Shown here one piece after another: positions 30-25,978 of a stretch of 43,859 bases of DNA. Source of the stretch: an uncultured Alphaproteobacteria bacterium (GTDB lineage: Bacteria; Pseudomonadota; Alphaproteobacteria; Rhodobacterales; Rhodobacteraceae); contig CACBNQ010000009.1 in NCBI GenBank assembly GCA_902540655.1, positions 1-43,859 of the forward strand, in the 5' to 3' direction. Each line of letters begins with the position of its first letter. The stretch's first letter is position 1. Below the pieces are notes generated by a model. It saw nothing but the letters and a program-made list of their open reading frames with translations, was not told where the DNA came from and did no database searches. The translations under genes and the position numbers were made by a program.

Positions 30-1217
30 ATGCCAAAATACGCTATCTTTATCGCTGATGAGAATTATGAATTTGCCATTCTGGCAGATGAAATCTTGGG
101 CTTTTGCACTCTCAAGGGGAAGAACAACTCTTTGCTCAAAAAATCACAAGAGACAATTTTTCAAATTGAAAACTTGGATGACTATGGATTGGTAAAAGTA
201 GTTGATGTAAAGAACTTGGAGCTACACAATTCTTTAAAGGCACTAAAAGAGAAAAAGGTCACTGTTGGTGAAATTGAGGTTGAAAAATCAAAAAAAACTA
301 CAACAGAAAAATACTTCACATTTTATATAGATGGTAAATTTTTTGCTTTTGATCTCACAAAGGTTAGAAGAGTATATCACATGGATACGGTGAAGTTACT
401 AGATACAAACAGTCTCAACGGCTTCTTTCTAGCCGACTTTAATGACCTCATTTGTCCCTTAATATCAACTGAAAAGAGAAAAAATATATTTCAGGTTTTT
501 GTTCCAAGCGATGACAAAGGTAGTAATCAAGTTTTAGCTTTTGCGACTGACGATGATTGCTATATTTCAGAGGTTGATACAGCTTCAATAAAGAAAATTT
601 CATTGCAAAGTTCAAGACAAAATAACTGGGATTTATGTAAACTGGGTTCCAGCTTTGAGGAGCACTCATTATATTCGTTCAGCGATAACAACAATAATCA
701 GGTAAATATTGTTGAACTCAACTTACTGAAAAAGTTCACTGAAAGTTTACCATTTTCCCCATTCAGATCCTTAAAGAGAGAAAGTGGACAAAAAAATTTA
801 GTAAAGAACATAGTAATAAACGAAGGAGACCTTAATTTTATTTTTCCGTTGAGCCACTTGCTCAAGGTTGATTCGATAAAACTAATGAAAGTTAACAAAA
901 ACAGTAAGAAAAATCTCATGTATACAGAGTTCAATAGAAAAATTTACAGCATTTTTAAATTCAATACTGTCTTAGGCTTAAATAATTCCAAGGATTCTCA
1001 GCAGGTGCTATTTTTTGATTATAATAATTTTCAATTTGGTCTAATGGTTTCTTCCTTGAGCGACATGCAAATTGACTCAACATTATTGGAGTCTGATGAA
1101 TATTTTGATGCAAGGTTTAAGGGAGTTGCTGCACGTAAACTGCACGTAAGCGGCAAATCTATGTATCTTCTTAATCAAGATAACCTTAAGCAGCGGCTTT
1201 TGGATATGTCTCAATGA
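30..1217 (+). CDS. Multi-module CheW-like chemotaxis scaffold protein
   Basis: This 395-residue protein opens the chemotaxis operon. Three CheW-like segments can be traced, at about residues 1-80, 95-250 and 262-395. The middle one begins YFTFYIDGKFFAFDL, like the first strands of CheW. The last ends FKGVAARKLHVSGKSMYLLN, like the closing strands of a CheW fold. Single CheW proteins are about 150-170 residues, so this is a fused or repeated form. CheW couples chemoreceptors to CheA in the cytoplasm. No separate cheW lies in the window, so this protein probably takes that role. Its 3' end overlaps the cheB start by four bases (ATGA), which suggests translational coupling. The CheW assignment rests on pattern and context, and the first module is the least certain. 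Confidence 0.6.
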   Translation: MPKYAIFIADENYEFAILADEILGFCTLKGKNNSLLKKSQETIFQIENLDDYGLVKVVDVKNLELHNSLKALKEKKVTVGEIEVEKSKKTTTEKYFTFYIDGKFFAFDLTKVRRVYHMDTVKLLDTNSLNGFFLADFNDLICPLISTEKRKNIFQVFVPSDDKGSNQVLAFATDDDCYISEVDTASIKKISLQSSRQNNWDLCKLGSSFEEHSLYSFSDNNNNQVNIVELNLLKKFTESLPFSPFRSLKRESGQKNLVKNIVINEGDLNFIFPLSHLLKVDSIKLMKVNKNSKKNLMYTEFNRKIYSIFKFNTVLGLNNSKDSQQVLFFDYNNFQFGLMVSSLSDMQIDSTLLESDEYFDARFKGVAARKLHVSGKSMYLLNQDNLKQRLLDMSQ

Positions 1218-2248
1218 AAATTGCAGTAGTTGATGACTCAAAATTTACAAGAATGGTTATCAAGCAGATATTAAATGGATTGTCTAACACGGATTTTTGT
1301 TGGGAAGCTGAGAATGGAAAAGTTGCTTTGGAAAAAAATACACGAGACCCTGTTGATTTAATAATTTCAGATCTCGAGATGCCAGTTTTAGATGGTCTTC
1401 AACTTTTAAAAACAGTTATCGGTGGAGAAGCTAAAACCAAGTGTTTGCTTATAAGTGCATTTCATAAATCGAACCAGCCTAAAATTATAGATGCTCTGAA
1501 AGCAGGCGCTATAGGATTTATTGAAAAAAATTCTTTAGGAAAAGGATTCGATATAAATAGTTTAAAAAAAGAAATCGATAAGCACATAAATTTTCTCGCT
1601 CAAGATAATATCTTGAAAAAAGAAATTAGAGCCGCTTCGCTGGAAAACAATTCTAGCAGATCTGTTGTTAAAAACAGAGCAGACTTTATATCTATAATAG
1701 GATCCGCTGGTTCATTAGGCCCAATAGAGAAAATTCTTGAGTTTACAGACAAGATAGAAGTTCCAATAGTAATCGGTATTCATATTCCCTTTGGTATAGA
1801 AAAAGTATTAATAAACCGGTTTAATACTGTCGTTGGTGAGAAGACCAAAGCTCTTACGTTTGAGGGACCAATGCAAGTCGGAAAAGTTGTTCTTTTGCGA
1901 GGAGGTTACAATGCCAAATTGGTTAGAAATATAGATAATATAGATATAGAATACGAGGATCTAAGGACGGATAGAAGTTTTACTCCTAACTTAGACAATT
2001 TTCTATTAAGTGCACATTTGATTGATCTGGTCTCCGATGTTATCGTGTTAAGTGGCTTATGTAATGATGGTATACAAGGTGTGAGGGAACATTTTAGAAG
2101 GGGTGGTAGCATTTATGTTCAGTCTCCCGAAACTTCGGTTGCGAGAACAATGCCTCTAGCTATAATAAATGAGGGGTGCCATTCTGTGGTTTCTGATCCC
2201 GAAAGCATAGGTAAATTATTACAAGAGAAATATTTAACGGCGTTATAG
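1214..2248 (+). CDS. cheB: CheB-like receiver-methylesterase, altered nucleophile loop
   Basis: Two domains are visible: a receiver (residues 1-125; VVDDSK, phospho-acceptor D53, K105) and a CheB-type methylesterase (about 158-344). CheB removes methyl or amide groups from chemoreceptor glutamates. The catalytic His (H190 in IHIP) and Asp (D285 in LSGLCNDG) are in the expected places. The nucleophile loop is unusual: it reads IGSAGSLGP where CheB normally has IGASTGGP, so the usual Ser position falls on Ala or Gly, depending on the gap. S164 or S167 might substitute. The length (344) is normal for the family. It overlaps the preceding gene by ATGA and is followed three bases later by the CheY-like gene. 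Family membership is sure; enzymatic activity is not. Confidence 0.85.
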   Translation: MKIAVVDDSKFTRMVIKQILNGLSNTDFCWEAENGKVALEKNTRDPVDLIISDLEMPVLDGLQLLKTVIGGEAKTKCLLISAFHKSNQPKIIDALKAGAIGFIEKNSLGKGFDINSLKKEIDKHINFLAQDNILKKEIRAASLENNSSRSVVKNRADFISIIGSAGSLGPIEKILEFTDKIEVPIVIGIHIPFGIEKVLINRFNTVVGEKTKALTFEGPMQVGKVVLLRGGYNAKLVRNIDNIDIEYEDLRTDRSFTPNLDNFLLSAHLIDLVSDVIVLSGLCNDGIQGVREHFRRGGSIYVQSPETSVARTMPLAIINEGCHSVVSDPESIGKLLQEKYLTAL

Positions 2249-2251
2249 GAA

Positions 2252-2662
2252 ATGAATAAAATTGAAGATAGAAAAGTTTTAATAGTTGATGACAGCAAAC
2301 TTATGCGTCTTTTGTTAAAAAATATATTAGATGGTATGAAGTTTTTTTCCGAAATTTATGAAGCTGAGAACGGTAGAGAGGCACTTGATTTACTAGAACT
2401 GAACAAAGTTGACCTAATTCTTTTAGACATTGAAATGCCGGTTATGGATGGTGTTGAAGCGCTTAAAGAAATTAGATTAAAGCATGATGTTAAAGTAATA
2501 ATTGTCTCATCGCTTGCTCAGCTTGGAAGTAGCTACTCCGTTAAAGTGAAGCAATTATCTGCTGATGGGGTTATTGACAAGCCAAGCGGCGCTGTTGATC
2601 CCTCGTTAGCCGCAAAGAGAGGAAACGAATTAAGAGATATGATAAAATCATTATTTGATTAA
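2252..2662 (+). CDS. cheY: Single-domain response regulator (CheY-like)
   Basis: This is a stand-alone receiver domain of 136 residues. It has the acidic pocket VDDSK (D13, D14), phospho-acceptor D59 in LLLDIEMPVMDG, and conserved Lys K110 in DKPSG. It would accept phosphate from CheA and relay it to the motor or to another output. The C-terminal part (KQLSADGVIDKPSG, followed by an amphipathic helix) resembles the receiver half of CheB more than classical CheY. It may therefore derive from a CheB receiver, or act as a phosphate sink. It sits three bases after cheB and 18 bases before cheA in the same operon. Confidence 0.85.
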   Translation: MNKIEDRKVLIVDDSKLMRLLLKNILDGMKFFSEIYEAENGREALDLLELNKVDLILLDIEMPVMDGVEALKEIRLKHDVKVIIVSSLAQLGSSYSVKVKQLSADGVIDKPSGAVDPSLAAKRGNELRDMIKSLFD

Positions 2663-2680
2663 ATTAAATGAGTTAGAGGG

Positions 2681-4321
2681 TTGGATAAAGATTTTTTAAA
2701 CGAAATATGGTTACAGTTTGAAACAGAGGCAATGGAGCACTGCACCTCAAGCGAAGATCTTCTACTTGATACCAATTTAAATGCTAGTGAAGGGACTAAA
2801 ATAGACTCATTATTTAGAGCCTTTCATTCTCTTAAAGGCCTTTTCGGAACAGTTGGACTGAATCAGACCCTTGAACTCACCCATTTAATTGAAGATGTTG
2901 TAGATAAAATAAGATCTCGTGAAATGCTACTCGATAATAAAATTAGAGGTTTATTACTAAAGTGTATTGATGTTTTAAAGGGTGTAATATCATCATCATC
3001 ACAGGAAAGAAAAGAAATAGTCGACGGAAATTTGGATGCTGTAAAGCAGCTCATTGTTTCGATTGAAACAACCGAATTTCAAATGGACATTAATTCAAAA
3101 AATATTGCAAAAAAAGAACTCGACAACCAAATTTCAGTGTCTGATAAGAGTGATCGATTTGCAACTGTAGGTTTGGAGACTATTGATTTTTTGTTTCATA
3201 AAGCAGGGCTAGTTTCTTCGCAGGTAAATGTTTTGAAGAACATGACAAAGCTTAGTTTGAATAATGCTCAATCTATCGAAAATGTAGATAAATTAATAGA
3301 TATTCTTCAAACGGAAGTCACCACATTAAATCAAGCAGTCACAGATCTTCGACTGATCTCTGTCAATTCTTTGATCCGACGCTTGAAGAGAGATGTTTTT
3401 GAAACTGCTACAAGTTTAAATAAAAATATTGAGTTTAGTGTTTCAGGAGACAATGAAAGAGCAGATCGAACAATTATTAATGTGCTGTCGTCTGCATTAA
3501 TGCATCTTTTGAGAAATTCAGTTGATCACGGAATAGAAAAAAATGAAGAAAGAGGACAAAAAGGAAACGGAAATATTCATCTAGACTTTAGTAAGGAGCA
3601 AGATGGTCTTTTAATAACAGTTTCTGACGATGGAAAAGGCCTTAATAGGAAAAAAATTGAAGAAAAATTACGAAAACTTGAACTGCTCTCGGATGACGAT
3701 ATTAAGAAATTATCCGATTTACAATTATATGAATTTATCTTTCAACCTGGGTTTTCGACAAAAAGTGATGTAAGTGAAACCTCTGGTAGGGGTGTTGGAT
3801 TAGATGTGGTTAAGAAAAATATTTCCTCATTGGGAGGGACTATAAATGTTGTTTCTGATGCCGGCATAGGTACAAAATTTTTTTTAAGGATACCAAATAT
3901 AGTAAGTACAGAGGATTGTCTTGTTTTGAGTGACCTTAAGACTATATACGCCTTTCCAACACGGTCAATACATTGGATTAAAACTGTTGCTCAAGTTGAC
4001 TTTCAAAAGCATTCCTCCATCCGCAGCATCGTACACGGAAAGAATATAATTCCTGTACACAATGCGCCTGATTTATTTGGTAATTTAGCCGAAAATGTTG
4101 ATGAATTAGAAGAGAAGATAATTTTGATTAATATGAACGAAAAAGCCTTTGCCTTAAGCTATAAAGGCAAACTTTCCTATTCTGAACATGTATTTGATGA
4201 GCCTGATCCCTTAGTGTCAAAACTACCATTTGTATCTGGTACTACTGTAGATCAAGATAGAAACATCATCTTCAGAGCAAACTTAGAGAAGCTATTTGAA
4301 ATAAATGAAAGAGCTGCCTAA
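2681..4321 (+). CDS. cheA: Chemotaxis histidine kinase CheA (short form)
   Basis: CheA autophosphorylates in response to receptor state and passes phosphate to CheY and CheB. Domains in order: an HPt domain with phospho-acceptor H49 (FRAFHSLKG), a linker and dimerisation helices at about 155-245, an ATPase domain with N box HLLRNSVDHGIE (275-286), DDGKG (316-320) and GRGVGLDVV (369-377), then a C-terminal CheW-like domain (about 405-546). At 546 residues it is shorter than typical CheA (about 650), and no P2 CheY-docking domain is apparent. The start is TTG at 2681: a stop at 2669 leaves no ATG or GTG upstream. A GAGGG sits directly against it, which is closer than ideal. The last 17 bases overlap the next small gene. 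Confidence 0.9.
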   Translation: MDKDFLNEIWLQFETEAMEHCTSSEDLLLDTNLNASEGTKIDSLFRAFHSLKGLFGTVGLNQTLELTHLIEDVVDKIRSREMLLDNKIRGLLLKCIDVLKGVISSSSQERKEIVDGNLDAVKQLIVSIETTEFQMDINSKNIAKKELDNQISVSDKSDRFATVGLETIDFLFHKAGLVSSQVNVLKNMTKLSLNNAQSIENVDKLIDILQTEVTTLNQAVTDLRLISVNSLIRRLKRDVFETATSLNKNIEFSVSGDNERADRTIINVLSSALMHLLRNSVDHGIEKNEERGQKGNGNIHLDFSKEQDGLLITVSDDGKGLNRKKIEEKLRKLELLSDDDIKKLSDLQLYEFIFQPGFSTKSDVSETSGRGVGLDVVKKNISSLGGTINVVSDAGIGTKFFLRIPNIVSTEDCLVLSDLKTIYAFPTRSIHWIKTVAQVDFQKHSSIRSIVHGKNIIPVHNAPDLFGNLAENVDELEEKIILINMNEKAFALSYKGKLSYSEHVFDEPDPLVSKLPFVSGTTVDQDRNIIFRANLEKLFEINERAA

Positions 4322-4640
4322 AAAGGAGAAAAATACGTTTATTGTAGGCTTTTGGGGTGATACTTGGATAGCCTCAGAACTGCATAAAATCGATAAAATC
4401 AAAGAAGGAAAGTTTAAAGACAAAGACTTGGTAGCGTTTTGTAAAAGCGAAAAATACAAAAACTTGAAGCCAAAGTATTCCCTATTAAGGGTCGATGGCA
4501 AGGTGATACCACTAGAAAACAAACCAACCCAAGAAATTGGATCGATTTTATCTAATGCTATGGATTTCAGGCAATACCTAGAAAAAAAATACAAATTTAT
4601 TAGCCTTGATAATAAAAGAGTAGCTATTTTGATCTTGTGA
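4305..4640 (+). CDS. Unknown 111-aa protein inside the chemotaxis operon
   Basis: I do not recognise a family. The product is a soluble, Lys-rich protein of 111 residues with no signal peptide or membrane segment. It contains FIVGFWGDTWIASELHKI near the N-terminus and a hydrophobic C-terminus (VAILIL). It lies between cheA and cheR on the same strand, overlapping the cheA end by 17 bases and ending 13 bases before cheR, so it is almost certainly co-transcribed. An excellent ribosome-binding sequence, AAAAGGAG (4321-4328), lies just inside the reading frame, but no ATG, GTG or TTG follows in frame at useful distance. The real start may therefore be the coupled ATG at 4305 or a rare codon near 4335-4341. 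A chemotaxis accessory role is inferred from position only. Confidence 0.6.
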   Translation: MKELPKKEKNTFIVGFWGDTWIASELHKIDKIKEGKFKDKDLVAFCKSEKYKNLKPKYSLLRVDGKVIPLENKPTQEIGSILSNAMDFRQYLEKKYKFISLDNKRVAILIL

Positions 4641-4653
4641 TTAAAGTAATTGA

Positions 4654-5370
4654 ATGATTTACAACGAAAAGGATTTAATAGAAAAGACTGGTCTAAATCT
4701 GGATCAAAAAAGCGTTGATTTATTACAAAAAGAAAAAGAAGGTCAGCTGCTTTCATCCTTAGATATTCATGAAGTTGCGCATCTATTTACTAACCCTGAA
4801 AGCTATTTTTTCAGAAGTCTTTCCCACTTAGAACTTATAAAAAAAATGTCTACCGAGAACATAAGTATTTGGTTCGCTGGATGTTCTACTGGGCAAGAGG
4901 TTTACTCTGCATCATTAATGCTCTCTTCAATAAGTGATAAAACTTTAGTGGGTACCGATTTAAGTAGAAAATATATAGAAAAGGCTTTATCTGGGTCATT
5001 TTTTGTTTTCAGAAAATCTGAAATCAAGTCATTAAAAAAATATGAGCAGCTTCCCCAAAGTCAGCTACATTTAAACAATAATAAGAAAAGTTTAGATGTA
5101 AAATTTTCATCAATAAAAAAAGATGGTATTTCATTCGATATTCATAACCTAATGGATGGTCCCTATAATAGCGCGTTTGATATAGTCTATTGTAGAAATG
5201 TTTTGTTGCACATGACAATAAAAGGAAAAAAGAAAGCACTTAGATCATTAAAGGACGGAGTAAAAGAAGGTGGGATCCTCATATTAGGTGATACAGATCC
5301 TCATATTTTTGAAGACAATTGGGAAAGAAAAAAACATAACAACGCAATATTTTGGAAAAAAAAGTGGTAA
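4654..5370 (+). CDS. cheR: CheR-type chemoreceptor methyltransferase
   Basis: CheR transfers a methyl group from S-adenosylmethionine to glutamates on chemoreceptors, opposing CheB. The sequence has the CheR signatures in order: TNPESYFFR (46-54; compare NETxFFR), SAM loop AGCSTGQE (75-82; compare ACSTGEE), acidic GTDLS (100-104) and CRNVLLHM (180-187; compare CRNVLIYF). At 238 residues it is slightly short, mainly because the N-terminal helical domain is reduced. It lies 13 bases after the 111-aa unknown gene and 57-75 bases before the chemoreceptor. Confidence in the family is high. Confidence 0.88.
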   Translation: MIYNEKDLIEKTGLNLDQKSVDLLQKEKEGQLLSSLDIHEVAHLFTNPESYFFRSLSHLELIKKMSTENISIWFAGCSTGQEVYSASLMLSSISDKTLVGTDLSRKYIEKALSGSFFVFRKSEIKSLKKYEQLPQSQLHLNNNKKSLDVKFSSIKKDGISFDIHNLMDGPYNSAFDIVYCRNVLLHMTIKGKKKALRSLKDGVKEGGILILGDTDPHIFEDNWERKKHNNAIFWKKKW

Positions 5371-5445
5371 ATTCTCGTATATTTAGATTTGTATTGATGT
5401 CTTATTGGCTATGAAATAACCTAATTAGTGCAAAAAAAGGACCTT

Positions 5446-7827
5446 ATGATGAGAGTTTTAGCAAAATCACTCCTCGATCTTATTCCACTGGCGATTGTAA
5501 CAATTATAATTTCAGTGCTTGCTAGTCAGAGCCTTGATGAATTATCGGTTAACTATAATGAGATTATCACTGAGGATTTGTCAGTTGTAAGTCGTTTGAA
5601 TGATACTGGAAAGGCTATAGACAACTGGAAAAGTGCGATCAATGAGGGAGTTTTAAATAGTGCTGAAAACCCGGATTTAGCCACACAGAATTTTGAAAAA
5701 CTATTATCAGAAAAAGAAAACCTTCTAAAATCTCTAACAGATGCGATTAATATTCTGGAAGGTAAAAAGGCTAGGTTTGATGCGGGAGATAATGAAAGTA
5801 GTCAACAGTCAGAAAATGAAACAGGGGTTTCAGAGAATCAAGAAAGAATTAAGAATCAAATCGAAAGTCTGAAATTTTTGAAAGAAAATAATTTACCCAC
5901 AATTGAAAAGCGCTCTAAAAATGTGCAGTCGCTAACGCAATTTAGTGCATTTTCTCAAAGAGATTTATTATTTTCTATGAATTCTAGTGTAGAGGATGCG
6001 CTCAAAATTTCAATGGAGGGTACTGCTAAATCACTTGAAATTACTTATACTTTTCAAACTGACTTGAAATACGATATCGATGACAGCGAGGCGATTACTG
6101 CCAATGTAGGTAAGTTTCCAAGCGTACCGGTTATTTTACTAGATATCAATTCTGTTTTCCAAGAGATAAAAAACATACAAGGGACACTCGCCTCTAGCTT
6201 TGGTAAATACATGCAAAAAGACGATGAATTAGTAGAAGAATTGGAAAAGAAAATTGAAGTAGCAAAGTCATTATCCACATACTTATCAAATTTGGAGAAA
6301 AATTTTAAAAAAGATTTTATGGAAAAAGAAAGTTACAGGAATGTTTTCAGTGAATATTTTAATGAGAACTATGCTGAAAGACTTATCGTTCCCATCAACA
6401 ATTACTCATATTTTTATACAGATCTTACAGATGCACTGTTAAAGGACGACCAGCAATTAAAGCAACTTGAAATAGAAAAGAGTACATTGTTTTCCAACTT
6501 GTCAACGGCCTCTACTACTATAAACTCTATAATTTCGGACGTACGAAAAAACATTGACGCAAAATCTGCGGAAAATCAATCTTTGACCGACGAAAGAATA
6601 GAAACAACCTGGACCCTTTCTATAATAGGACTTTTGGCTGCCTTAGCCATTGGTTTTCTTGTAGCGAGGCAGACAATTATAAACCCGATGAGAGAATTTA
6701 CTCATATAACGAATGATATTGCAAATAGTGGAGATTTTTCAAAACGGATTAAAAATCCCGGAAGCGATGAGATTGGAGAAGCAGGGAAAGCTGTAAATAA
6801 TATGCTCGAGATAACAGAAAAGGCCTTTAAAGATATCCAGGAGCTTTTCACAAGCGTTTCGTCGGGTAATCTAACGGCAAGATTGCCAAGGGGTTACAAG
6901 GGAGATATTGAGGAATGCGCGATTCATATTGGAAAATCATTGGAGCAGTTGTCAGTAACTTTAAAAGACATATTAATTGACGTTGATCAAATAGCTACCG
7001 CTGCCTCGCAAGCTGGCGATGCGGTTGGTCAAGTTGCGGATGGTGCTAAAGCACAAGTAGAAGCCACCCAAGATATTCAGGCAAAGGTAAAAGAGTCTGG
7101 TGATCTTCGAGAGTTAGTTGAGGAGAGTACAAAGAAAACTGGTGAAGCTGCTTTAGAGGCATCTAAAACTGCAAAAAAGGGTTCAGATGAAACTGAAAAG
7201 ATGGTTGAGTTAGCCAATGAAGTGTCAGAAAACAGTGGTAAGATAGCGGAAATTTCATCTCTTATTGAAGAAATAGCGCAGCAGACAACAATGTTAGCGC
7301 TTAATGCCTCGATCGAAGCTTCAAGAGCAGGAGAAGCGGGAAGAGGCTTTTCAGTTGTAGCGACTGAGGTAGGTAAGCTCGCTGATAGATCTTCGCAGTC
7401 AGTAAAAGATATTAGTATATTAACTAACGATGCAATGCAAAAAGCGAATGATAGCGTTTCTAGAATGGACAAAGTGAAGTCAGAAATGGAAAACATCAAT
7501 AGCTTAATTGAAAATATTGAGAGCATGATGATGACGGTAGATCGTCATACTGATCAACAAAAAGAAGTGGCTCTAGCTGTTTCAGGTGCAATCGATAATC
7601 TAGAGAGGATCGGTGAGTCAAATGCTGTTTCCTCTGAAGAAATCACGGCTTCCATGCTTGAATTATCTAAGATCGCAGGTAACACACGTGAAAAAATAAA
7701 TGTTTTCTCTTTGGATGACGAAATAATTGATGGTGAAAAAGAGAAAGCTGAAACTGACAGAACAGTCGATGAGGCTGAGTTTGATTTAGATAAAGCACTC
7801 AAGGATGCAACTGAATATAAGTCCTAG
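5446..7827 (+). CDS. Methyl-accepting chemotaxis protein, two TM segments
   Basis: This is a transmembrane chemoreceptor of about 793 residues. It has a first TM helix near the N-terminus ([15 protein letters not shown]) and a long, probably extracytoplasmic, helical sensor region of about 360 residues. A second TM ([17 protein letters not shown]) is followed by a HAMP region with [19 protein letters not shown]. The cytoplasmic signalling coiled coil has the hairpin tip [20 protein letters not shown] and [11 protein letters not shown]. The ligand domain matches nothing I recognise. I chose ATG 5446 (or 5449) over the upstream GTG 5428 because AAAGGA (5436-5441) sits just before the ATG pair, while nothing resembling a ribosome site precedes the GTG. 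The C-terminus ([13 protein letters not shown]) lacks the NWETF-type CheR/CheB tether. Confidence 0.9.
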
Positions 7828-15189: not shown

Positions 15190-15657
15190 ATGGAAAAAAC
15201 TGAAAAGCATGTGATATGGCAGCCAAATGAAGAGATTTACAAGGCAGGGGATAACCCAGAAGGTGCGTATCTGATTAAGTCTGGATACGTTTACATTTAT
15301 ACATCAGGTGGACTAAAACTTAATAGGCTGGGTGTAAATGAAATATTTGGTGATGCCTCGCTTGTTTTAAAAAAGCGACGTTCGGTAACTGCAATTGCCG
15401 GTGAGCATGAAGTTCATGCCTTATTTCTTCCAGCAAGATCGATAGACAGTTTTTTACAACAAAACAAAGTTATTTCTGCGTTGATAAGAAAAACACATTT
15501 GAGACTCATTGATTCAAACGCGCAAAGTGAAGAATTATCTAAGGATTTGGAAAAGCTGATGGCGATGGTAAAAAAAACTGAAACAATATCCGAAGATATC
15601 ACCAAATTAGTCGAGCAGATGAGGAAGAAAGTAAATAAGACTCTTTCAGAAGATTGA
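15190..15657 (+). CDS. Stand-alone cyclic-nucleotide-binding domain protein
   Basis: This 155-residue protein consists of one CRP-like cyclic-nucleotide-binding domain (about 8-120), with GAYLIKSGYVYIY, LNRLGVNEIFGDASLVLKKRRSVTAIA and an arginine-containing phosphate-binding turn (KKRRSVTA). A helical, probably coiled-coil, tail (about 115-155, rich in Glu and Lys) follows. No DNA-binding domain is present. It may sense cAMP or cGMP and act by protein contact. It starts six bases after the GST stop. The regulated partner may be the co-transcribed thioesterase or GST; that is inference. It is convergent with the exporter gene, with only two bases between their stops. Confidence 0.8.
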   Translation: MEKTEKHVIWQPNEEIYKAGDNPEGAYLIKSGYVYIYTSGGLKLNRLGVNEIFGDASLVLKKRRSVTAIAGEHEVHALFLPARSIDSFLQQNKVISALIRKTHLRLIDSNAQSEELSKDLEKLMAMVKKTETISEDITKLVEQMRKKVNKTLSED

Positions 15658-20426: not shown

Positions 20427-22067
20427 ATTTTAAGTAATTCTGCAATATTTCCTACTAACCATTGGGCAAAAAATAATGGTATACTGAGAAACTTTCCCGC
20501 TGTTTTTCTATCTATCCTTTTAATTGGTCCTATATTCAGTTTACTTCTGACAGCTTTCGAAAGTAACCAAGATCTGTGGGTCCACCTTGTAAACACTGTA
20601 TTGCCTATATACGTAGTGAATACTTTATTCCTATTCTTAGGAGTATTAACTCTAGCAGGTGGTTTAGGTATTTCAACGGCATGGATTGTTACTTATTACT
20701 CTTTTTTTGGTAAAAAAGTAATAGAGTGGGCTTTAATACTACCTCTAGCTTGTCCGGCTTATATTATTGCTTATGTCTATACCGATTTCTTAGAATACGC
20801 AGGGCCGGTACAAGGACTTATAAGAAACATATTTGGTTTTAACTCGGCAGCTGACTATTATTTTCCTGAAATAAGATCGGTAATGGGTGCTATTTTTGTA
20901 ATGGGTTTTGTACTCTACCCCTATATATATATTTTAGCACGAACAGGTTTTAATAACTCTCCTAGAAGCTTGTATGAGACTGCGGCTCTTTATGGCAGAA
21001 ATAAATTTTTTGCAGTTGGCTTGCCCTTATGCAGACCATATATTGTGGCGGGTTTTGCTCTTGTTGCGATGGAAGTACTGTCAGATTTTGGAACAGTTGA
21101 ATATTTCTCTGTTCAAACGCTTACTCTGGGAATGTTTAACGTTTGGATTGGGATGAATAGTATATCTGCAGCATCACAAATAGCGATAGTGACCTTTTTT
21201 TTTATTATCATCTTGCTTGTTTTAGAAAGAAAGGCAAGATCTAGCCAAAAATATAATGATACCTCTAAAAGACTTAATAATATTTCACCAAAAGAGTTGA
21301 GTATGAAAAAAGCACTATTTGCAATTTGCTTTTGTTTAGTGCCAATTTCAGTTGGTTTTATAGTTCCAATAATTATATTAATAAATAACGTTTTTATAGG
21401 GCTAAAACCTGATAGTTTTTTTGCGATTTTCCCTATACTGTTAAATACTATTTTTATAGGTTTAACCACCACATTAATTATTATATTACTTGCTTTTTTC
21501 TCAGCTTCTAGCGCGTATTTTTCTAAAAATCGTGCTTTAGTTATTATCTACAATATTGCTGCTACGGGATATGCTCTCCCTGGAACTATGCTCGCTATAG
21601 GTGTAGTTATTTTTTTTGGGTTTTTAGATAAATTTACAGGAAATATAGTCTTTTTAGGCGGAACGATATATGGAGTTATATTTGCATTAACAGTAAGGTT
21701 TTATGCTGTTCCCTATGGAGGAGTGATTTCAGGATACTCTAGAATTCCCTCAAATTTATTTGATGCATCAAAAAGTTTGGGTTTTTCCACAATATCTACA
21801 TCATATAAAATTACTCTTCCCCTTATAAGGACATCGATTATAGCTGCTGCGATTTTGACTTTTGTAGATATAGTCAAAGAGTTGCCAATGACATTGATAC
21901 TAAGACCTTTTAACTTTGAAACACTCGCAACTTATACATACCAGTTTGCACATGACGAATTAATGATCGAGGCATCATTGCCAGCATTCTTCATTATAAT
22001 TACTGGACTTATCCCGATTTTGTTACTACAAAATCAATTAAATAGCTTTTTTCATTCAAAAAACTGA
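20427..22067 (+). CDS. fbpB: Iron ABC transporter permease, probable ATT start
   Basis: This is a two-lobed permease of the FbpB family with about twelve helices. Binding-protein-dependent signatures occur in each half (SLYETAALYGRNKFFAVGLP and NLFDASKSLGFSTISTSY). The first ordinary start codon is TTG at 20601, but the homologous reading frame clearly extends upstream: residues encoded at about 20490-20600 form the expected first helix (AVFLSILLIGPIFSLLLTAF) followed by WVHLVNTVLP. Counting from ATT 20427 gives 546 residues, the usual size; starting at 20601 would delete helix 1. No ATG, GTG or TTG lies between. ATT initiation, as in infC, or a sequence error are the options. The 3' end overlaps the convergent neighbour by 16 bases. 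Confidence 0.8.
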   Translation: MLSNSAIFPTNHWAKNNGILRNFPAVFLSILLIGPIFSLLLTAFESNQDLWVHLVNTVLPIYVVNTLFLFLGVLTLAGGLGISTAWIVTYYSFFGKKVIEWALILPLACPAYIIAYVYTDFLEYAGPVQGLIRNIFGFNSAADYYFPEIRSVMGAIFVMGFVLYPYIYILARTGFNNSPRSLYETAALYGRNKFFAVGLPLCRPYIVAGFALVAMEVLSDFGTVEYFSVQTLTLGMFNVWIGMNSISAASQIAIVTFFFIIILLVLERKARSSQKYNDTSKRLNNISPKELSMKKALFAICFCLVPISVGFIVPIIILINNVFIGLKPDSFFAIFPILLNTIFIGLTTTLIIILLAFFSASSAYFSKNRALVIIYNIAATGYALPGTMLAIGVVIFFGFLDKFTGNIVFLGGTIYGVIFALTVRFYAVPYGGVISGYSRIPSNLFDASKSLGFSTISTSYKITLPLIRTSIIAAAILTFVDIVKELPMTLILRPFNFETLATYTYQFAHDELMIEASLPAFFIIITGLIPILLLQNQLNSFFHSKN

Positions 22068-23056
22068 ACAGCGAGATATAAGAGCGTCGAGAACATCAGA
22101 ATATATAACACTATGATATTCACTTTATTATTAGAGCCAATAAACTTTAAAGTTTCTAAAGCTTGTTTATGTTCTTTGAGAGTCTGCCTAGCTTTATTCG
22201 GTTTGGGTTTTTTTAAATCTTTGCTTGCATAGTATACATCGACTATAAATGGGTTAACTTTTGAGATGGAGCCCACAGATCCAAAGTAATCAGGCATCTC
22301 TGTATAATTGGAGACATCCGCTTTTTCATATAGTAGCTTGTAGGCCTGCCCGTCAGTTATAAACCCATTTTCCGTATATATCCCAGTAGGTTTTTCCGCA
22401 TATACACCTTTTAAATTACCTAGGTTACATCTAACAATAATAGCCTCAAACTCAGTATGATAAATCTTGCTAAGTAGATCTCTAAAGGTATCATCGTCCA
22501 GATATACCTCTAAATAGAATTCTTCCCCAAAGTTATAATCCAGATTGTCGCTCGCTTTGCCACAAGACAGAGAAAAAAAACCGCTACCCCTCAAATCATC
22601 AAAGTTTAAATCTCCCTGAGTATAACTTCCGAGAACTGATTTTTCTCTGCTAGATATTTGTTTGCTATCTCTTTTTAAACAATGGATGGCGACATTTATT
22701 TTATCTGAATATTCTCTTGAACCGAGTATTGAAAAGGAATCTTTATTTTTTTTGTAAATATTATTTAGAATTATACCTGTGCCAACAATTTGCTCGACTT
22801 CACTAAATCCAGCAGATTTTTTTTTGCTTATACTATAGATATCACCATGTTTATATGACTTAGAGTATTCTGGCGATGCAATTTTTAGCTCAATAGTGCC
22901 ATCTTTAACAGGAAAAAATCTTACAAGCTTCTCTATTTCGTCAAAATCATTTCGTTTCTCTACTAAGTACTCAGTCTCTTCTTTTGGCAGATTAAATGAA
23001 TTCTGTTGTCTTACAAAAATCACTTCATTTGGGTATGTCGAATTTGTATTCTTCAT
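22052..23056 (-). CDS. Unknown protein with C-terminal membrane anchor
   Basis: I recognise no family in this 334-residue protein. It lacks an N-terminal signal and is mostly polar. A C-terminal hydrophobic segment (NIIVLYILMFSTLLYLAVQFF, about 312-332) after a Lys-rich stretch (KPKPNKARQTLKEHKQALETL) gives a tail-anchored topology, with the body probably cytoplasmic. It has few cysteines and no recognisable catalytic motif. It is very AT-rich, consistent with its neighbours on this strand. Its 3' end overlaps the iron permease gene by 16 bases. A 68-base gap separates it from the Cys-rich secreted protein gene upstream, so they could be co-transcribed. Confidence 0.7.
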   Translation of the reverse strand: MKNTNSTYPNEVIFVRQQNSFNLPKEETEYLVEKRNDFDEIEKLVRFFPVKDGTIELKIASPEYSKSYKHGDIYSISKKKSAGFSEVEQIVGTGIILNNIYKKNKDSFSILGSREYSDKINVAIHCLKRDSKQISSREKSVLGSYTQGDLNFDDLRGSGFFSLSCGKASDNLDYNFGEEFYLEVYLDDDTFRDLLSKIYHTEFEAIIVRCNLGNLKGVYAEKPTGIYTENGFITDGQAYKLLYEKADVSNYTEMPDYFGSVGSISKVNPFIVDVYYASKDLKKPKPNKARQTLKEHKQALETLKFIGSNNKVNIIVLYILMFSTLLYLAVQFFE

Positions 23057-23124: not shown

Positions 23125-23484
23125 TTATTTGTTACGAGCACATTTATATTCTCTGGGACAAGCACCTTTATCTTCAATAACAATAGTAACCTCGGGTGGA
23201 TCCATTCTCGATCCTGCTTTTACATAAGTACACATTCTCTGAGTTGGATCATCGTCATTCCATTTCCAACTTTTAAACCTACATGTTACTGGAGTTGTGT
23301 TAGAGAGTGCGGCTCTTCTACGGCACTTAATCTTTTCTCTTCCCATTATTGTTTGTGGCCACTTAAGCCTCATAGTGTCCCAAAGAGTGCAGTGTGGTTC
23401 TTTCTTATTTTCATACATACGTCCTTCAGCCAAGGAGATGACAGGAAACATCAAAAGGACGTATAAAAAAAACAGCTTTTTCAT
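23125..23484 (-). CDS. Small Cys-rich secreted protein, unknown
   Basis: This 119-residue precursor has a clear signal peptide (KKLFFLYVLLMFPVISLAEG, cleavage about residue 19-20). The mature part is basic and contains six cysteines (in PHCTLWD, IKCRRR, VTCRFKSWKW, RMCTYVKAG, GACPREY and KCARNK), enough for three disulfides. I do not recognise the family. The regular Cys spacing and signal suggest a stable periplasmic or secreted protein. It lies upstream of the tail-anchored unknown and diverges from the RRF-like gene across a 163-base AT-rich spacer. Confidence 0.75.
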   Translation of the reverse strand: MKKLFFLYVLLMFPVISLAEGRMYENKKEPHCTLWDTMRLKWPQTIMGREKIKCRRRAALSNTTPVTCRFKSWKWNDDDPTQRMCTYVKAGSRMDPPEVTIVIEDKGACPREYKCARNK

Positions 23485-23647
23485 TTCTTTTTTGTTACTC
23501 TCTTTAAAATATTGGTTGATTATAAAATCGACACTTATATTTATTATTTTAGAAGTTTTGAAATTTTTCTGTTATTAGTGTATCATAAAATGTGTGTAGG
23601 ATTAATTTTTTTGGATTAAAAAAGAATTATTCAAAAAAGGGGGAAAA

Positions 23648-24304
23648 ATGGCTGAAGTTTTTGAGGACTCCTATTCAGCGGAAGCGTTAGCGAATATGGA
23701 GAACTATATAATTAGTTTTGGCACTTTAATTAAAGACGTCGGTTCTAGCGAAGGGTTTAAGAATGCGCTCTTTGGCATGAAGGTGATGATTGAGAAAAAA
23801 CCTAGACGTATAGCTGATTTGAGCAAAATTTATGCTGGAAAAGCGCCCAGAACTTTGGAACTTCTCGTATTTAGTAGAGAACATATTCCATTGATAGTTG
23901 CTGAGATAAAGGCGCACGAATTTAAAAATGTAAAAGCAGACGTGCAACAGCAACTAATTACAGTTACTGTGCCAAAGCCAACGCTGGATGATCTAACGGC
24001 TATGGAAGATCAAATAGCTACTATGAGCCGATCTGCAATAAGCAGTTTGACAAAAATTAGAGGAAACACTTCACAGAGACTAAAAGCTGCATTGGAAAAT
24101 GAATTCATTGACGGCGTTACTATGCATAACTCAAGAAACAAAGTGGATGCTGTATACGATAAGTATGTAAAGCTTGTAAAACTTCATTCTCTAAAGAAAA
24201 GAAAATCTATCTTAGGCAGTTATTTTGAGCCAAAAAATGAAGAAGAAAGATTGCTTTTGCCTGAACTTAACAAATTAAAACCTTTACCTGAACCAAAAGA
24301 ATAG
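23648..24304 (+). CDS. Divergent ribosome-recycling-factor-like protein
   Basis: This 218-residue protein appears to carry an RRF-type fold at about residues 55-192. [20 protein letters not shown] lines up with the RRF segment [35 protein letters not shown] then matches [35 protein letters not shown] lines up with RVAVRNVRRDANDKVKALL, keeping one arginine (R138) at the position of essential R132 in E. coli RRF. The closing helix [24 protein letters not shown] also fits. It has an extra N-terminus of about 50 residues and a Pro/Glu-rich tail. RRF splits post-termination ribosomes with EF-G; true frr genes are about 185 residues and much better conserved, so this is probably a paralogue. GGGGG precedes the ATG. 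Confidence 0.65.
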   Translation: [218 protein letters not shown]

Positions 24305-24340: not shown

Positions 24341-25978
24341 ATGCCAAAAACAGGTGGCCAATTAATCGCAGAAAGCCTTGATACGAACGAGGTCAAATAC
24401 GTGTTTTGTGTTCCCGGTGAAAGCTATTTGGGCGCTCTGGACGCTCTGTTCGACAAAAAGAAAAGTATAAAAGTTATCAATGCGCGTCATGAAGCTGGAG
24501 CAGCTAATATGGCTGAGAGCTATGGTAAGATTACTGGAAAACCAGGAGTTGCCTTAGTCACAAGAGGGCCCGGAGCCTGTCATGCCTCTGTAGGTGTACA
24601 TATTGCTCATCAGGACAGCACTCCAATGATCTTGATAGTAGGGGATGTTGCAAGAGCTGTTAGAGACAGAGAGGCTTTTCAAGAAGTAGACTTCAAGAAC
24701 TTTTTTGGACCAATATCAAAGTGGGTAGGAGAAATTAGTGATCCAGATAGGGTTCCGGAATACATGAATAGGGCCTTTAGTCTGGCCACTTCCGGAAGGC
24801 CAGGACCAGTGGTGTTAGTTACCCCAGAAGATATGCTTTCTCAACTCACGAAAGTAAAAACTCCTGTTTTAAGTCCAGTTATTAGAGGTGAAATGCCCTC
24901 GAAGGGATTAAGCGGTTTAATTGAAAATTTAAAAAAATCAAAAAAACCTCTTTTTATAATTGGTGGCTCGGGTTGGACCGATAGGTCGTGTTCTAAACTT
25001 CACAATTTTATCAATGAAAATAATATTCCAGTAGCAACATCTTTTCGCAGACAGGATTTATTTGACCATAAAAACGAGAATTTTGCAGGAAGCTTTGGTA
25101 CCTCAGTATCCCCAAAACTTATAGATAGTACCAAAAACAGTGACCTAATTATTGTGTTAGGAGCTAGGCTAGGTGAAATGACAACTCAAGGATATAGCAT
25201 TATCAGCCCTCAGGATATTTCAAAAAATATAATGCATATTCATGTAGACCCAAATGAGTTGAATAAGGTTTTTAACGCCAATGTATGCATAAACGTTGGA
25301 GTGAATGAGTGCTGCGATAAGCTAGAAGAACTCTCTTTGGATAATTCCGATCAATGGAAAGAATGGAGAAATGAGTTAAACAAAAACTACTTGGAGGACT
25401 CTAAACCACAAAAAAATAGAAACCTTAATAATCTGGGTAAAATTTTTGAAATAGTTGAAAAAAAATTCCCCTCAAATTCTATTATAACCCTAGATGCTGG
25501 AAATAACGCAGCCTGGCCACAAAGGTTTTTAAGCTTCGGAAGAAACCGGAGGCAGATAGCATCTACCTGTGGTTCTATGGGATATGCCATTCCAGCAGCG
25601 GTCTCTTCAGCACTGTCAAATCCAGAAAAAGCTGTTCTCTGTTGTGTAGGTGATGGAGGCTTTATGATGTCTAGCCAGGAAATCTCTACGGCTGTTCATT
25701 ATGGTGCGAAAATTATTATTTTACTTATTAATAATAGTAGTTATGCAACAATAAGAATGCATCAGGAGAGAGATTATCCGGGGCGAAAAATTGCTACAGA
25801 TTTGAAAAACCCTGACTTTGTTAAGCTATGTAAAGCTATGGGTGCTGATGCCTATAGAGTAAAAGGAGTAGAAGATTTTTCTCAAATTTTTGCCAAGTCG
25901 CTTAAGTCAAAAAAAGTAAATGTTATTGAAATACCAATTTCCATAAATCAATTATCCCATAGGTATAATCTTAAGTAG
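24341..25978 (+). CDS. Thiamine-pyrophosphate enzyme, acetolactate-synthase-like
   Basis: This 545-residue enzyme has the three-domain arrangement of the acetolactate synthase/benzoylformate decarboxylase family. The N-terminal pyrimidine domain has catalytic Glu51 in ARHEAGAANMAE, the middle domain is at about 190-330, and the C-terminal diphosphate domain carries GDGGFMMSSQE followed about 25 residues later by INN. The ALS loop with GRKIATDLKNPDFVKLCKAMGAD is present. It may be an ALS-like lyase or decarboxylase; true IlvB would normally pair with IlvH, which is not here. ATG 24341 is the first possible start because an in-frame TAG lies six bases upstream. It ends overlapping the convergent kinase gene by eight bases. 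Confidence 0.85.
   Translation: MPKTGGQLIAESLDTNEVKYVFCVPGESYLGALDALFDKKKSIKVINARHEAGAANMAESYGKITGKPGVALVTRGPGACHASVGVHIAHQDSTPMILIVGDVARAVRDREAFQEVDFKNFFGPISKWVGEISDPDRVPEYMNRAFSLATSGRPGPVVLVTPEDMLSQLTKVKTPVLSPVIRGEMPSKGLSGLIENLKKSKKPLFIIGGSGWTDRSCSKLHNFINENNIPVATSFRRQDLFDHKNENFAGSFGTSVSPKLIDSTKNSDLIIVLGARLGEMTTQGYSIISPQDISKNIMHIHVDPNELNKVFNANVCINVGVNECCDKLEELSLDNSDQWKEWRNELNKNYLEDSKPQKNRNLNNLGKIFEIVEKKFPSNSIITLDAGNNAAWPQRFLSFGRNRRQIASTCGSMGYAIPAAVSSALSNPEKAVLCCVGDGGFMMSSQEISTAVHYGAKIIILLINNSSYATIRMHQERDYPGRKIATDLKNPDFVKLCKAMGADAYRVKGVEDFSQIFAKSLKSKKVNVIEIPISINQLSHRYNLK

Follow-up and report, generated by a model that had tools for sequence, protein, structure and literature searches.

Ribosome recycling factor (RRF) serves translation in nearly all bacteria, and a gene for a second, divergent RRF-like protein raises the question of what its product does. 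Such a gene was noticed in a 43,859-nucleotide stretch of DNA from an uncultured member of the Rhodobacteraceae (assembly GCA_902540655.1, contig CACBNQ010000009.1), the whole of which is referred to here as the window. An earlier note on this DNA suggested that the protein could be a hibernation, rescue or specialised recycling factor. We call it RRFm, a label used in the present analysis for the RRF-fold paralogue and distinct from the Rrf2 transcription factors. The gene and its ribosome-binding site are as follows:

23648..24304, + strand: RRFm, RRF-fold paralogue of 218 aa with an ATG start (ORF list, Pfam, family profile, tree and predicted fold)
23636..23647, + strand: G-rich ribosome-binding site immediately 5' of the RRFm ATG (by eye)

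The relationship of RRFm to RRF was unclear from the single sequence and was resolved by a family profile. A search of the PDB with RRFm itself gave no clear match (best RRF, E = 0.41). However, when a profile of 20 family members (A3) was searched against the PDB, the best 20 sequences were all RRFs, matched over approximately profile positions 13-190, and E. coli RRF (1ek8) was hit at 6.7e-13. Moreover, the Pfam RRF model (PF01765) matched residues 42-189 of RRFm at 7.2e-11, with 42.6 bits against a cut-off of 29.7. Nine other family members were scanned with this model, four scoring above the cut-off and five below (17.1, 18.1, 28, 14.7 and 20.9 bits). The earlier note had aligned residues 69-192 or so with the RRF fold; that alignment stands, but the homology covers nearly the whole length. 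An AlphaFold2 model of RRFm, made from 31 aligned family members (pLDDT 86.1, pTM 0.70), shows a predicted order of helix, strands, helix, strands and two long helices that resembles RRF. All 26 Foldseek matches of this model in the PDB at E≤0.001 were RRFs, with TMq from 0.41 to 0.69 and rmsd from 3.2 to 7.9 Å, the high rmsd values lumping domain rotation with other causes. On its PF01765 score and predicted fold, RRFm belongs to the RRF homologous superfamily. The prediction gives it the two-domain fold of RRF, as the earlier note had anticipated, and not an unrelated one.

Purifying selection acts on the RRFm gene. The dN/dS between the window RRFm and its relatives was 0.035 (L006), 0.026 (L012) and 0.10 (L017), synonymous change being saturated in the remaining three of the six comparisons (L014, L015 and L016). 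The G-rich stretch before the ATG agrees with the claim that the gene has its own ribosome site, and a promoter scan 5' of the gene found 2 candidates against 2.5 expected from shuffles, i.e. no excess. The Pro/Glu-rich tail that had been described is present, approximately residues 191-218 having a high P, E and K content. The added N-terminus described with it is reduced to some 12 residues preceding the RRF match, which bear a family-specific Y-S motif. The hinge had been given as VPxPxLT and in fact reads VPKPTLD.

In a tree of 97 rows, 44 RRFm-family rows were separated from 53 canonical rows by a single branch (100/100), whilst the inner order of the RRFm clade is uncertain owing to several long-branched family rows and a tool warning on one join. 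Columns were compared between 89 family rows and 63 canonical rows in E. coli RRF numbering. Arginine is found at R28, R31, R110 and R129 in 63/63 canonical rows. In the family, R28 is mostly replaced by G (43 rows) or K (30), R31 by an acidic residue (74 rows; D 49, E 25), R110 by L (69) and R129 by T or M (53 rows; T 35, M 18). R133, an arginine in 59/63 canonical rows, is mostly S, T or G in the family, which also generally lacks the canonical residues G30, Y45, E122, D151, Q161 and T164. G46 is retained in 55% of the family and R63 in 21%, the window RRFm being among the latter. The family has conserved residues of its own, namely Y9, S10, R53, E152 and I154 (91-99%) and R144 (83%). Among the five arginines expected of a functional frr (R28, R31, R110, R129 and R132), only the R132 position is basic as a rule in the family (K 71, R 17, N 1; 88/89 rows). 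R138 of the window RRFm had been assigned to this position, and the alignment does place it on E. coli R132. We take these five arginines to contact 23S rRNA or to be required for activity; the literature searched on RRF arginines contained no passage on an rRNA-binding role of R28, R31, R129 or R132. The hinge proline P109 (P103 in RRF) is kept in 96% of the family. The median net charge is +2 in the family versus -2 in canonical RRF, and this more basic charge means that the family could still bind RNA.

Some relatives have canonical frr in addition to RRFm. Among 22 genomes of the genus, the window's own included, 17 contained RRFm, 14 canonical frr and 10 both. The canonical gene of G006, G013 and G008 lies in the order rpsB-tsf-pyrH-frr, with cdsA-like and dxr-like genes next in line (names by eye), and that of G044 also has a tsf-pyrH-frr context. 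A canonical copy was also seen in 7/8 RRFm carriers in the order of genome G186. Since both genes coexist in these relatives, RRFm is no substitute for frr there. RRFm is almost certainly a paralogue distinct from frr, and its description as a divergent second RRF-like protein is right for those organisms that also bear the canonical gene.

An even sample of the class (385 genomes) was screened for RRFm, which was found in 9 genomes at E≤1e-19, from families f1, f9, f19 and f109; within f1, it occurred only in the window's genus. In the order of G249, families f239 and f240 also carry it. We take f9 to be of the AEGEAN-169/HIMB59 type and the order of G249 to be SAR116, G249 itself probably being Puniceispirillum marinum IMCC1322. 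Judging from isolate-name series, the carriers are apparently marine. In a phylum sample of 398 genomes, 73 other matches scored 36-70 bits, weaker than family members, and the 16 of these placed on the tree all grouped with canonical frr. The RRFm family is a distinct clade in a few alphaproteobacterial lineages.

Gene order was compared across 15 loci of the window's genus. The absence of a tsf-pyrH-frr context at RRFm was confirmed at these loci, but the gene does not stand wholly alone as had been stated: in the window a same-strand gene follows 36 bp downstream, and this order is shared by all 15 loci. The features of the window that bear on this are:

24341..25978, + strand: thiamine-diphosphate enzyme (acetolactate-synthase-like), 36 bp 3' of RRFm; order kept in 15/15 genus loci
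23125..23484, - strand: small secreted-looking Cys-rich protein (c10), divergent neighbour upstream of RRFm; kept in 15/15 genus loci
22052..23056, - strand: 334-aa protein without a Pfam match, with a hydrophobic stretch near the C-terminus (by eye); kept in 15/15 genus loci
30..7827, + strand: chemotaxis genes on the same contig, namely CheW-like, CheB, response regulator (by eye), Hpt/HATPase kinase and MCP

RRFm and the thiamine-diphosphate enzyme gene are possibly co-transcribed. The chemotaxis genes lie approximately 16 kb from RRFm and serve as background evidence for motility only. Small secreted-looking Cys-rich proteins also flank RRFm-type genes elsewhere (c88; L194 6273-6671 and L200 7601-7912), with a C-terminal Cys pattern similar to that of c10. 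A relationship between c10 and c88 was dropped, the profile comparison giving only E = 0.12.

Clustering of neighbours at 64 loci (L195 gave no family ORF) places RRFm amongst flagellar genes in some lineages, which belong to two groups. In f239, RRFm comes after motA-motB, with rpoN further up. Of the loci of 41 f239 carrier genomes, 22 were compared; motB adjoins RRFm in 22/22, and at the 20 loci with a placeable start it lies on the same strand 15-42 bp upstream. The main copy of the f9 type ends the run fliO-fliP-fliQ-fliR-flhB-c15-c16-c6-c7-RRFm, with motB and motA convergent behind. Here c7 precedes RRFm on the same strand with a gap of 4-36 bp in 13/13 distinct genomes compared. The c7 protein gave a low-confidence model (pLDDT 66.5) and weak PDZ and DUF2628 matches. 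In g477 (G870 and G871), RRFm is found between motB and c7. New here is the position of RRFm, directly behind motB in an apparent operon in one family and last in the flhB run in another.

RRFm is found away from flagellar genes in the window's genus (15/15 loci), in f19 and f240, at the other f109 loci compared and at L066. The same is true of a second f9-type copy (L076-L080, L082-L084 and L111), whose neighbours encode a J-domain-looking and a TerB-domain protein. The window's genus does have a flagellar cluster (the window's own genome, G000 contig 14 = L207, together with G007 and G014), which comprises rpoN, c4, motA, motB, c7, c6, c16, c15, flhB and fliR-O, and from which RRFm is absent. 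The cluster (L207, L208 and L209) matches the unusual gene complement seen in the order of G249 and in f9-type genomes. A gene of approximately 380 aa separates motB from c7 in G007 and G014, the one in G007 with a weak methyltransferase match; the corresponding position in the window's own genome (L207 10281-11424) holds short open frames only. FliP of the genus scored 262-267 bits versus 228 in G022, the sole other family member tested, and horizontal transfer of the cluster is possible. Since RRFm lies outside the flagellar cluster in the window's genus, a motility role there is something we infer rather than read from its neighbours.

With the L066 genome set aside, FliP or FlhA was found in 18/18 carrier genera among the searched genomes (13 from the order of G249, 2 from the order of G186, 2 from f9 and the window's genus). 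The base rate of FliP by genus was 17/20 in the order of G249 and 2/6 in the order of G186. Therefore, the 13/13 flagellated carrier genera in the order of G249 are weak evidence alone, flagella being common there. In the order of G186, FliP was found in 8/8 carriers among 28 genomes, and 18 genomes contained neither gene. Of the others, G918 has FliP without RRFm and G923 a FliP fragment only. RRFm was thus found in 0/19 genomes of this order without full-length FliP (Fisher's test, p = 2.9e-6, shared ancestry ignored). For the order of G249, cut-offs of 90% completeness (minimum) and 5% contamination (maximum) gave a test set of 43 genomes, with A3 matches of canonical type (G869, G874 and G911) scored as non-carriers. 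Both genes were found in 22 of these, RRFm only in 3 (G825, G863 and G868), FliP only in 9 and neither in 9, a modest association (Fisher's test, p = 0.014, shared ancestry again ignored).

FlhA was checked in 30 chosen genomes and was present in 8/8 carriers from the class sample. Fourteen FliP-negative carriers were covered, a count that leaves out G855, G878, G886 and G896 from the order of G249. Six of them contained FlhA (G001, G019, G801, G815, G828 and G868) and eight did not. Five of these eight (G825, G798, G807, G818 and G822) have RRFm next to motB. This leaves G863, G012 and G016 (94, 64 and 62% complete) as carriers without FliP, FlhA or an adjacent motB. Conversely, FliP is found without RRFm in 9/31 high-quality FliP-positive genomes from the order of G249, in G918 and in 10 genomes of other genera.

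G249 contains two RRFm copies, one of which runs into a C-terminal BLUF domain:

L093 892-2139, - strand: RRF-like protein with a C-terminal BLUF domain, G249 (BLUF match, 2.9e-24)

The Tyr, Asn, Gln and Trp of this domain align with those of photoactivated adenylyl cyclases and are presumably the photoactive residues. A rod-protein gene (flgF-like) is approximately 3 kb from the fused gene, the interval being occupied by a malonyl-CoA decarboxylase gene and three other ORFs; a sigma-factor gene is approximately 4 kb and flhA approximately 8 kb away. Of the 90 distinct family sequences, this fusion alone, among the frames examined, extends by over 60 residues past the family match, and a Pfam scan of the window RRFm gave no match to BLUF (PF04940). 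No paper combining RRF and BLUF was found in the searched literature. Cyclic-nucleotide-binding-domain proteins adjoin RRFm at L066 (1085-1510), L109 (2567-3919), L200 (6353-6772) and L201 (5321-6565) and lie within approximately 5 kb of it at L193 (5022-5351) and L196 (11807-12169). The window carries one at 15190-15657.

Taken together, recruitment to motility fits these data better than a second recycling factor does, because the fold is kept while the RRF signature is lost, the canonical gene is retained in relatives, in some families RRFm shares an operon-like run with motB or flhB, the carrier genera are flagellated and a sensory domain has been fused to it. A link between RRFm and motility we consider reasonably likely. 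That the clade has left ribosome recycling altogether and works in flagellar motility is about an even call, and that its target is the motor and not the ribosome falls a little short of that. In the motility reading, RRFm would be a cytoplasmic factor whose target is the stator or the export machinery (MotAB, FlhB or the neighbouring membrane PDZ-like c7). The old two-domain hinge of RRF may serve as a movable lever, and a sensory signal would set its activity, which for the BLUF fusion would be blue light. More tentatively, the flagellar system of pelagic Alphaproteobacteria might have taken over the RRF fold to serve as a cytoplasmic switch of the stator or export apparatus with sensory input, which in one lineage would be blue light via BLUF.

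The main rival, owing to the basic residue at position 132 in 88/89 rows, is a specialised ribosome factor that recycles, rescues or silences ribosomes conditionally, for instance on tightly packed flagellar operons. RRF homology and the predicted fold agree with this, as do the conserved hinge proline, the basic net charge and the arginine that the window RRFm retains at R63. However, four arginines invariant in canonical RRF are replaced, R31 mostly by an acid, relatives keep canonical frr alongside, the spread of RRFm tracks flagella and the BLUF fusion suits a regulatory output domain. We therefore regard such a factor as a minority possibility. The role given in the earlier note is of this kind. 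Beyond homology it found no positive support, though position 132 leaves room for it, and the lost arginines, gene context and spread point instead to flagella.

RRFm could also be a regulatory RRF-fold protein that has come to lie in flagellar clusters by chance in some lineages, its true partner being a sensory or cyclic-nucleotide pathway and not the motor. The cyclic-nucleotide-binding proteins at or near six RRFm loci and in the window, the BLUF fusion and the non-flagellar contexts in several families would suit this. Yet such proteins are common generally, carrier genera are flagellated and co-directional, direct adjacency to motB or an flhB run recurs in different families. We hold this reading to be slightly less likely than a specialised ribosome factor. 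It is very improbable that RRFm is the main RRF of its own organism, or a spare that still works. The own assembly yielded RRFm as the sole copy and no canonical frr, but this assembly is 72% complete and the sisters G006 and G013 have a near-identical RRFm together with canonical frr in its usual operon. A separate frr, looked for as a check on the earlier note, is seen in sister genomes and not in the window's own. Moreover, RRFm scored 22.3 bits against the frr equivalog model (TIGR00496), far below its cut-off of 149.1. Least likely of all is a phage or mobile-element gene: searches of phage records, viral contigs and plasmids gave no match at the sensitivity of each, PHROGs gave a best E of 0.043, the fold search had no viral match at E≤0.001, and the chromosomal neighbours of RRFm are conserved across the genus, so that a phage or plasmid origin is unsupported.

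Should recruitment to motility be true, RRFm would show clearly that a core translation factor can take up another function, with the fold kept, most of the invariant arginines dropped and the gene travelling with motAB and flhB in some lineages. It would also be a candidate regulator of the motor or of export in apparently oceanic bacteria, for which the BLUF fusion makes light a direct experimental handle. RRFm-type proteins that are annotated as ribosome recycling factors are probably misannotated. A search of the literature on second or paralogous RRFs, and on RRF and flagella, found no RRF paralogue family with another role.

Among the closest known systems is frr itself. It shares with RRFm near full-length homology, the two-domain topology (predicted in RRFm), the hinge proline, the basic R132 position and a K or R at K178. 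However, the window RRFm is only 21% identical (38/181) to the canonical frr product of sister G006, and frr sits in a tsf-pyrH context whereas RRFm is found in flagellar or other contexts. Both the family profile and the predicted fold also matched mitochondrial and chloroplast RRFs; several of these PDB entries are titled as ribosome complexes, whereas RRFm is known from sequence and a model. The BLUF photoreceptors known as photoactivated adenylyl cyclases share their key residues with the G249 copy but have a different partner, which in G249 is the RRF-like domain. Lastly, the stator accessory factors MotE, FliL and FlgX resemble RRFm in gene position, since in some lineages it too is found beside motB.
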